DNA from: Candidatus Geocrenenecus dongiae
GTDB taxonomy: Archaea > Thermoproteota > Nitrososphaeria_A > Caldarchaeales > Wolframiiraptoraceae
Length of the DNA: 64,000 nucleotides
Assembly: GCA_023267855.1 (NCBI GenBank)
Contig: JALNLN010000009.1
Coordinates: 1-64,000, forward strand
Direction: 5' to 3'
The position numbers were made by a program, and so were the translations under genes. This document shows positions 42,574 through 44,398 of this stretch, in pieces. The notes beneath the pieces are model-generated. The model had not been told where the DNA came from, searched no databases, and was given only the letters and a program-made list of their open reading frames with translations. Each line of letters starts with the position of its first letter. The first letter of the stretch is position 1.

Positions 42574-42619
42574 CTAGTGATAATCGTTTTCCTCTACTAT
42601 ATAACTTCTTATTGGCTAG

Positions 42620-42811
42620 CTAAGACTCAAGCTCTCTGATCTTCTTCTCTATAGTGAAGAACTTAAGCTTGCTTGGGTTTGAGCCTAGCCTTCTAGAGAT
42701 TCTAAACATGTAATTGTTCTGACACTCCACCTTGAACTCCCTGCATCCCAGACCAAGTTCAACGTAAAGTCGGTCCAACATATGCTTATATTCCTTCTCA
42801 TACCTCTCCAC
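42620..42811 (-). CDS. Small charged protein of unknown function
   Basis: The ORF track extends this frame to 42886, but the first 25 residues span a TATA-like element (ttatatat, 42826-42833). The real start is probably the GTG at 42811 (63 residues) or the ATG at 42781 (53 residues). The product (EYKHMLDRLYVELGLGCREF ... KIRELES) is charged and probably helical, with two cysteines. No family is recognised. It lies just upstream of S6e on the same strand. Confidence 0.4.
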   Translation of the reverse strand: MERYEKEYKHMLDRLYVELGLGCREFKVECQNNYMFRISRRLGSNPSKLKFFTIEKKIRELES

Positions 42812-42882
42812 TCTAAAAGAGAGGGATATATAACTTATAAAAATGATAAAATACATAAAGGATTCATAATTTATCATCATTG

Positions 42883-43082
42883 TCACTTTATATGCCTAAT
42901 AACATCGTTTATCAAATATTCTATCACATCTACCACCATTCTCCAGAATACTTCACCGTCAAGCAGTATATCTTTAGCAGTCTCTAAGACTTCCAAATCC
43001 GCTCATCCATTAGCTCAACCCTCAATCGTCCAGCACCATACAGTACATCTTCTCCTGTAATCTCAATTGCTACATCATACAT
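42883..43082 (-). pseudogene. Frameshifted small gene
   Basis: From an ATG at 43082 the frame reads MYDVAIEITGEDVLYGAGRL and then VELMDE before ending at a TAG (42984-42986). A second frame continues with DLEVLETAKDILLDGEVFWR to a TGA at 42883-42885. Restoring one base near 43004-43008 would join them into a compact helical protein of about 66 residues. It looks like a small gene broken by a single-base deletion, or a sequencing error. No family is recognised. Confidence 0.4.
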
Positions 43083-43118
43083 ATATTACTAGAGGTATGA
43101 TCAATATCTATTTTCAGC

Positions 43119-43298
43119 CTACTCTACAATTCTTTTATCTAAGATCATGATCATATAGTCATTGATGAATTTGCTGAGTACTTGGATAATCAATTGTGGT
43201 GAATATATGAGATTGGTGATTGGTTTTCCATTTATTCTGCTGTATCTAGGAATATTCTTCTTCACGATATCCGTCATACTATACGGAATATACGCCAT
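43119..43298 (-). CDS. Possible small protein of unknown function
   Basis: The ORF track starts at 43373, which would overlap the recombinase gene. An ATG at 43298 (MAYIPYSMTDIVKKNIPRYS) is better, with a weak TATA-like aatatac about 25 nt upstream. The 59-residue product has a mixed, protein-like composition ending in IMILDKRIVE. It lies 36 nt upstream of the frameshifted small gene on the same strand. No homologue is recognised. Confidence 0.35.
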   Translation of the reverse strand: MAYIPYSMTDIVKKNIPRYSRINGKPITNLIYSPQLIIQVLSKFINDYMIMILDKRIVE

Positions 43299-43323
43299 AA
43301 CGAATGATTGGAGATGATGTATA

Positions 43324-43785
43324 TTGACTAACACTACTGGTATCAGAATTGTTTTTGTCGATACTGCAAACAATTCTAGAAATCATTGTTGCTACGACCC
43401 TATTGGGGATAAGTTCTTCGAGGTTGAGAGTCTCATAGAGTTAGAAGGTTATGATGAAGTATATCTGGATTCATCGATATTCCAAAATATGTGGAGTGAG
43501 ATAGGAGAGCTTATAAGGAATGGTAGAAGAGTATTCTACTTTAGGAGACCGTGGAAGTGGAGAGAGCTGAGAAGCAAATTCGCTAAAGAATTAAAAGAGA
43601 GATTCGGTAAAAAGAAGACAGATTTTGGAGATGCCTACATTTTATCGAAGATTCCTAGAAGCTGGAAATGGTTTAGAGAGATAACACCAATCGATGTCGA
43701 GATAAAACCATTACTGACATTAGAGAAAGCCTACTACAAAAACTATCAGAGATTACTGAAGTTAAAGGTGTTGATAGAGATATAG
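43324..43785 (+). CDS. IS110-like DEDD recombinase, N-terminal RuvC-like part
   Basis: The 153-residue frame carries the acidic motifs of an IS110-type DEDD domain: IVFVDTANNSRNH (first Asp), YDEVYLDSSIFQNMW (acidic residue of the second motif) and GKKKTDFGDAYILSKI (the KTDxxDA motif). The TTG start follows a GGAGATGAT sequence. Downstream coding sequence resembling the C-terminal transposase domain continues in the -1 frame. A C AAA AAC heptamer at 43737-43743 lies where the frames overlap (43677-43785). Either a -1 frameshift joins them or the gene is broken. Confidence 0.6.
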   Translation: MTNTTGIRIVFVDTANNSRNHCCYDPIGDKFFEVESLIELEGYDEVYLDSSIFQNMWSEIGELIRNGRRVFYFRRPWKWRELRSKFAKELKERFGKKKTDFGDAYILSKIPRSWKWFREITPIDVEIKPLLTLEKAYYKNYQRLLKLKVLIEI

Positions 43786-43808
43786 GTGAAGTAAGAAACA
43801 GGATATCA

Positions 43809-44183
43809 ATGATACGTAGTAGAGTTGTGGAGAAGGCTAAAGAGATTATACCGATGTTCGATGAAATCTATAGAAGGTTAGGATTGGATGGAAATGACGT
43901 TAACGGATTATACGGTTTAGTTGGCGTACTGGTATATCTCGGATGGCCGAAGATTGTGATACCATACCACTACTCACTAAGATTCCTTGGATTATACAAA
44001 GCAAAAAATGATAGAGCTAGAAGGTTTAAGCATGTACAGGGGAACTGTAGAAGACTCTTCCAAATACTCACTGAAGCAATTGTAAAGAAGAGAAGTAAAC
44101 AATGGCCACCAAAACTAAGAGATCAAAGAAAGCTACTAAGAGAGTTGATCCATCTACTACAAGAGATTAAGGGGCCTGCCTGA
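43809..44183 (+). CDS. IS110-like recombinase, C-terminal part
   Basis: This frame is open from 43677, with the first ATG at 43809, and encodes a helical linker (GEVRNRISMIRSRVVEKAKE). It is followed by GLYGLVGVLVYLGWPK, then YSLRFLGLYKAKNDRARRF and HVQGNCRRLFQILTEAI. This layout recalls the IS110 C-terminal domain (GL-P ... SG ... KxGNxxLR). The serine of the usual SG motif, which acts as nucleophile in IS110 recombinases, is not evident. The piece may therefore be inactive or a diverged subgroup. Similarity is by pattern only. Confidence 0.5.
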   Translation: MIRSRVVEKAKEIIPMFDEIYRRLGLDGNDVNGLYGLVGVLVYLGWPKIVIPYHYSLRFLGLYKAKNDRARRFKHVQGNCRRLFQILTEAIVKKRSKQWPPKLRDQRKLLRELIHLLQEIKGPA

Positions 44184-44332
44184 GAGCTGGAGCAAAAAAC
44201 CAGGCTGGTCTGTTCTAGTTTAGCGCTCAGGTAGGCTTCTTGGAGTCTACCGTGCAGTCTGCTACTATATGGTGCCGCTGGGTTGCTTAAACAGCTTTCA
44301 GGTAGCCCCCACCTCCACTTTTTATTCTTGAT
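44168..44332 (-). ncRNA. Unidentified GC-rich structured RNA candidate
   Basis: This is the only GC-rich noncoding block in the window. It folds well in either direction. On the plus strand, 44174-44187 can pair with 44223-44236 (one mismatch, one G-U), 44230-44236 with 44245-44251 as an alternative hairpin, and 44261-44265 with 44302-44306. The motif CTACCTGA occurs twice on the minus strand. A minus-strand TATA box (44355-44362) predicts a start near 44332, so I annotate the minus strand. The alternative is a plus-strand bridge RNA of the IS110-like element. It lacks the signatures of SRP RNA, RNase P RNA, tRNA or box C/D RNA that I looked for. Confidence 0.5.
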
Positions 44333-44354
44333 TGAAACTTACATGGTCCCAAAA

Positions 44355-44362
44355 TATATAAA
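44355..44362 (-). promoter_or_regulatory. TATA box facing the structured RNA
   Basis: Reads tttatata on the minus strand. It lies after the aIF5B stop codon, so it cannot serve that gene. Its spacing predicts transcription from about 44332 into the GC-rich block. Confidence 0.5.
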
Positions 44363-44398
44363 CTAGCACGTATTTTACTTCTATCTTTCTTGTTCCCT

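Follow-up and report, generated by a model that had tools for sequence, protein, structure and literature searches.

Introduction

A common origin has been proposed for the IS110 bridge-RNA recombinases and the TIGR-Tas nucleases (PMC12045711). In IS110 and IS1111 elements (IS621, ISCro4, ISEc11), the recombinase is accompanied by an adjacent noncoding RNA, the bridge RNA or seekRNA, with two guides that address opposite strands around a 2-bp core. In IS621, residues D102 and S241 act jointly and both are essential (PMC11208158). The RuvC-Nop nuclease TasR operates with a tandem-spacer tigRNA; the two spacers of about 9 nt have symmetric roles, each is directed to a different strand, and the catalytic serine is not needed (PMC12045711). 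In TasR loci, many guide units form an array. A further group of related systems comprises homing endonuclease elements and the TnpB/IscB OMEGA systems, which are specific for an uninterrupted site that is destroyed by insertion. The guide of TnpB is read from the flank of the element.

Here, we analysed a stretch of DNA of 64,000 nucleotides from Candidatus Geocrenenecus dongiae, referred to as the window. It contains a gene for a RuvC-like protein and a noncoding RNA that is located downstream of it, as in IS1111. Like the RNAs of IS110 and IS1111, it carries two guides for opposite strands around a 2-bp core, and like a tigRNA it combines two short guides, one for each strand, in symmetric roles. 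In contrast to the TasR arrays, a single guide unit resides in a mobile element, and its guides are directed at the site into which this element is inserted. The element shares with homing endonuclease elements and TnpB/IscB the specificity for an uninterrupted site; it differs from them in that the protein is RuvC-Nop-like and is combined with a dual-guide hairpin, and from TnpB in that the guides lie inside the RNA.

A structured RNA overlaps the 3' end of a RuvC-like protein gene

The protein gene is located on the plus strand and is split into two reading frames. The N-terminal, RuvC-like part (43324..43782), which begins with a TTG start codon, is 80% identical to the intact homologue L012, a protein of 328 aa from Ca. 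Geocrenenecus huangii (genome G005). The C-terminal part of the same gene (43783..44183) continues in another frame, and in comparison with L012 about 13 nt are missing near 43765-43780. Judged from this alignment, the window protein is probably broken by a frameshift, and this copy is thus probably inactive alone. Searches of Pfam, NCBIfam and the PDB with the protein sequence yielded zero hits above cut-off.

The RNA (44172..44318, plus strand) forms a long hairpin and is directly followed by a run of T at 44319-44323. A T-run 3' of an RNA is a typical archaeal terminator. An earlier note on this DNA had described a GC-rich, noncoding block with several stems at this position. The GC content is 0.475 at 44100-44299, compared to about 0.31-0.42 across most of the surrounding 5 kb. 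The plus strand of 44168-44330 folds with -69.2 kcal/mol (z -4.47; 0 of 200 shuffled sequences were as good), whereas the fold of the minus strand is ordinary (z -0.86 versus shuffles). The outer stem is present, and the motif CTACCTGA (that is, TCAGGTAG on the plus strand) is repeated within the block. The GC-rich structure is therefore confirmed; however, the block is not noncoding throughout, because the last codons of the second reading frame, with the stop codon at 44183, lie within it. The earlier note had matched the block to no known RNA class, and this agrees with the Rfam covariance models: zero families match at the gathering threshold, and none beyond chance at permissive thresholds. 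A housekeeping RNA (RNase P, SRP, tRNA, box C/D or H/ACA) was rejected, as there was no match in Rfam and no tRNA was detected.

In a set of 398 genomes from across the phylum, the protein family occurs in one order only, which we take to be the Wolframiiraptoraceae/Caldarchaeales group; the exceptions are three marginal matches. When the named genomes were scanned for close relatives, copies were found only in Ca. Geocrenenecus huangii; viral contigs contained zero close relatives, and the window copy is the only one found in the Ca. Geocrenenecus dongiae genome. Every copy read that has an intact 3' end possesses a GC-rich hairpin at the homologous position, overlapping or adjoining the end of the gene. 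Its scaffold is conserved and its inner loop is variable, and there is one guide unit per element in the relatives read.

The consensus structure of sixteen of these RNAs is one long hairpin of 44 pairs, with 95.6% of the cells paired. Compensatory changes were found at 13 of the 44 pairs; the covariation is above that of all 500 shuffles, and the signal is lost if the pairs are slid. The covariation among homologous loci, which the earlier note had named as a check, is thus present, the result covering the set of sixteen RNAs, with the window's own subfamily outside it. The two guides form the opposite strands of the loop that separates the apical from the closing helix. A second variable loop or a loop matching the element ends was not seen in these RNAs, and the ends vary between copies with the same scaffold.

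The element splits the rpS6e promoter

In four congeners (L115-L118), the genes of rpS6e and aIF5B are neighbours and are separated only by an intact rpS6e TATA box; CCTACTATATAAACCAG is an example of this empty site. In the window, CTACTATATAA is found beside rpS6e and TATATAAACTAG beside aIF5B, with about 1.75 kb between them. This comparison delimits a mobile element at about 42602..44356 (plus strand), which is inserted into the rpS6e promoter and flanked by shared TA/TATA bases. Limits of 43310-44329, which mark the end of DNA homology to L012, were replaced after the empty sites had been compared. The left half of the target, on the side of the rpS6e TATA box, lies at 42594..42604 and the right half at 44355..44366 (both plus strand). 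The copy in the window is probably a decayed member of its family that resides in the rpS6e TATA box.

As proposed in the earlier note, the loops of the RNA were compared with the insertion site, and each half of the split site is matched by one guide. Guide 1 (TTCTAGTTTA, 44213..44222, plus strand) is complementary to the right half; its part CTAGTTTA and, within the target, the stretch TAAACTAG form the complementary region. Guide 2 (CTACTATAT, 44262..44270, plus strand) is identical to the first 9 nt of the left half and pairs with the bottom strand. For the window alone, the probability that both matches occur by chance is near 0.009. As this is a modest value, relatives were needed for testing the guides.

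The empty site also bears on a second proposal of the earlier note, namely an independent RNA that is transcribed from the minus strand and has its own promoter at 44355-44362. A TATA-like sequence does exist at these positions, but it is one half of the rpS6e promoter of the congeners, severed as part of the target site of the element, rather than a promoter for another RNA. Moreover, the minus strand folds like a shuffled sequence, and in the homologues the hairpin structure stays on the strand of the gene whatever the neighbourhood. An independent minus-strand RNA is thus highly improbable.

Guides of related copies match their own insertion sites

The complete genome G024 (1,680,938 bp) contains five copies that are 86-96% identical. 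Their RNAs differ mainly at two stretches of 6 nt, which are embedded in the frame TATGAC-N6-TTTGACG ... ATGAC-N6-TAAGACG; the sequences TATGAC-N6-TTTGACG and TATGAC-N6-TAAGACG are repeated on both sides of the RNA in the G024 copies. By using guides defined by the structure, it was found that both guides of copies 122, 123, 124 and 125 match their own two flanks in 9 of 9 nt. For copies 119 and 126, the match is exact on one side and shorter on the other. In a fixed-window test in G024, 10 matches were obtained with each copy's own guides and 0 after guides had been exchanged among the copies. When the variable bases were shuffled, the mean was 0.19 matches and 0.0005 two-sided matches (seven elements). 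Scanning whole RNA regions automatically for matches to the flanks proved too noisy, because the borders of the RNAs are ill-defined, and was dropped.

Empty sites were predicted by joining the flanks of each element and were checked in the sister genome G025. All six predicted sites (copies 119 and 122-126) are contiguous in G025. They agree with the prediction in 16 of 16 nt for copies 122, 123 and 124, in 15 of 16 nt for copies 125 and 126, and in 15 of 15 nt for copy 119. The sites CAGGGTTAAATAATGC, TCACGATTTATACCGT, CTAACCTAAATAAGCT and AAACTCTTATAGAAG are identical to the predicted ones; CATACTTAAATAATCT and GCTTGATTTATGGGTT contain one difference each. Joining the flanks of copy 123 furthermore restores the end of a reading frame that presumably codes for a dTMP-kinase-like protein. 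One-sided guide matches of 10-12 nt were found in L012, L013, L017 and L021. The opposite half-site was found neither in these four f1 copies nor in G024 copy 120, and no empty site of L012 was recovered in congeners, whose flanks are too diverged.

The bases shared at the junctions vary by copy. In the frame of the RNA, their common part is the dinucleotide TA; copy 119, in which the left core is changed, is an exception. Around the TA, insertion was found in both orientations. Guide 2 is on the left in class I (copies 119, 122, 124, 125 and the window copy), and guide 1 is on the left in class II (copies 123 and 126), to which L012, L013, L017 and L021 were assigned from one-sided matches. 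The occurrence of both orientations is compatible with a core that is palindromic and with guides that are equivalent.

It is therefore very likely, as far as can be deduced from sequences, that the RNA serves as the guide in an RNA-guided mobile element of the IS110/Tas superfamily. The earlier note had considered a bridge RNA of an IS110-like element. Of this idea, the plus strand, a guide associated with a recombinase, and loops that match the split insertion site have stood. The canonical form of a bridge RNA did not: there is one guide loop, a donor loop and fixed ends were not recognised, the element occurs in two orientations, and the protein has no IS110 catalytic serine.

Guide identity among the five close G024 copies is 37%, with 26% expected by chance, whereas the scaffold reaches 93%. 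In addition, three pairs of copies, L119/L120 (G024) as well as L127/L130 and L128/L132 (G035), have guide 2 in common or differ in it by one base, but have unrelated guides 1, as if guides were changed one half at a time.

Predicted fold and active site of the protein

The AlphaFold models of the G024 protein and of L012 have pLDDT values of 93.6 and 86.3, respectively. The predicted fold comprises a RuvC-like DEDD domain, a coiled coil and a Tnp domain (Foldseek matches to IS621/ISCro4, E 1e-7 to 1e-5). The best PDB matches of the G024 protein are ISCro4, TasR and IS621 with E values of about 1e-7; sequence identity to the IS110/IS1111 proteins is 14-16%, and the TasR structure 9mty is matched with E 3.8e-7. 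In contrast, the model of L012, which belongs to the subfamily of the window, matches only IS621/ISCro4, and TasR is not among the matches.

Residue correspondences were deduced from sequence motifs and the predicted structure. On this basis, aspartates are kept at the places of IS621 D11, E60 and D105 in the 33 homologues where the sequence is complete; the place of E60 is thus a D. The place of D102 is occupied by D in 16 of 33 homologues and by A, G, S, H or T in the remaining 17. The full acidic DEDD set of IS621 (D11, E60, D102, D105) was accordingly not found in the 33 homologues. The catalytic serine of the motif G--P----SG is present in 0 of 33; an incidental SG/TG occurs elsewhere in the loop in 3 of them, and in several, G--P and the glycine are retained while N, D or K takes the place of the serine. 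A tyrosine closes the loop in 29 of 33 homologues; it is replaced by I or V in the subfamily to which the window copy belongs. The profile PF02371 has zero matches in six genomes of the order. The joint decay of D102 and the serine suggests either an ordinary RuvC nuclease site or a different nucleophile.

The element is not a canonical bridge-RNA IS110, and it lacks defining features, among those tested, of both the IS110 and the TIGR family. Unlike IS110/IS1111, it has a protein without the catalytic serine that is not matched by PF02371 and has often lost the third acid, as well as one guide loop, unconserved ends, both orientations, and guides that vary between near-identical copies.

Ends and arms of the elements

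The ends of sister copies share zero sequence beyond the conserved core, and their lengths differ by hundreds of bp. The elements are 1.3-2.5 kb long and have mosaic arms. Two host loci are represented by copies of 67 nt and 415 nt in the right tail of copy 123, both beginning with TTTATA; we take the longer one to be gatD-like. Two 79-nt host fragments are located in the right tail of copy 124 and one 50-nt host fragment in the left arm of copy 125. The left arm of the window element (42602..43312) is likewise mosaic, and 70-83% identical fragments occur elsewhere in Ca. Geocrenenecus dongiae and in a congeneric genome. Former TATA-box insertion sites that were carried along and repair filler would both explain the host fragments.

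Mode of insertion

The guide RNA would be transcribed together with the gene of the RuvC-like protein, whose end it overlaps. The two guides would pair with opposite DNA strands, guide 1 to one side of the TA and guide 2 to its other side; jointly, the guides would read about 16 bp (N8-TA-N6). The complex of protein and RNA would locate this site, and the element would end up inserted at the TA. Because insertion at this position splits the site, the occupied locus no longer matches the guides. We infer that the complex would cut the empty site in a TasR-like manner and that host repair would copy the element, along with adjoining or filler DNA, into the break, which would make it an RNA-guided homing element.

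RNA-guided cutting with repair-mediated insertion is favoured over serine-free recombination, and its probability is put at about one half or slightly above, because it explains the unconserved ends, both orientations, the filler DNA and the lost serine. The serine-free loop, the replacement of the third acid in 17 of 33 homologues, the unseen donor loop, the unconserved ends, the two orientations, and arms with host fragments, several of which start with TTTATA, were counted in its favour. An argument against homing is the presence of five near-identical copies at different sites, a pattern that resembles transposition more closely.

A divergent IS110-type recombinase would excise a circle and exchange strands at the TA core, with a tyrosine as nucleophile and the donor read by another part of the RNA. 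The fold and the gene-RNA layout are those of IS110/IS1111, the guides address both strands around a 2-bp core, the copies are dispersed like an insertion sequence, and a palindromic TA core would permit both orientations. This explanation is conceivable, if somewhat less than probable: the ends of sister copies are unrelated and hundreds of bp apart in length, a second variable or end-matching loop was not seen, and the proposed tyrosine is missing in 4 of 33 homologues and, with I or V in its place, in the subfamily of the window copy. Furthermore, the serine and often D102 are lost, both of which are required in IS621 (PMC11208158).

In a third scenario, another enzyme would move the element, and the RNA-guided nuclease would act as a retention device similar to TnpB/IscB by cutting only the re-formed empty site. 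Although the guides match the empty site exactly and the active site is nuclease-like, such a device is unlikely, since the elements showed no further transposase gene and neither conserved ends nor terminal repeats.

The change of guides between copies is explained neither by homing nor by recombination, and a new question is how near-identical copies in one genome acquire guides that differ from each other and fit their respective sites exactly. Returning to RNA-guided cutting and repair, we tentatively propose a third Nop/RuvC RNA-guided kind beside IS110 and TIGR-Tas. It would be an archaeal homing element with a single tandem-guide RNA that is renewed for each site, with insertion at TA either way and unfixed ends, and it would carry fragments of neighbouring genes from former sites. 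No account of such archaeal elements was found in the literature searched, outside of which lay most subscription papers and preprints. The family joins traits of IS110 (mobility, gene-linked RNA) with traits of TasR (one dual-guide unit, serine-free active site), and the step from nuclease to recombinase becomes testable through it. Practical use of a compact thermophilic RNA-guided protein with about 290 aa, one 150-nt RNA and a TA core may be possible.

Further segments in arms and upstream regions

A conserved ORF of about 111 aa, whose transcription is directed to the left end, is located in the left arms of L122 (1662-1997, minus strand, in recombinase-oriented coordinates), L123 and L126, all from G024; it has no match in Pfam. 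A short ORF in the left arm of the window element (42620-42886, minus strand) was rejected as a homologue, since the two have zero homology.

The 150 bp upstream of the recombinase gene of the window are 82-84% identical to the upstream regions of different genes at L207 (G000:C31, about 9.0 kb) and L204 (G005:C12, about 267 kb). It appears as if two kinds of mobile genes had one promoter region; the products of the genes at L207 and L204 presumably resemble homing endonucleases of an HTH plus LAGLIDADG type. L010, L013, L019, L023, L027 and L034, which belong to different subfamilies (G015/G016), possess a common upstream region with short ORFs, for example DNVFEFCRFYARWLGSPLMERLRHEIYELLEEA. 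This region could represent an accessory gene or a further captured segment.

In the sole full copy of G025 (L145/L178, G025:C2, about 212 kb), a gatD-like fragment follows the RNA, as in G024 copy 123. This may be due to shared descent or to repeated use of the same site.
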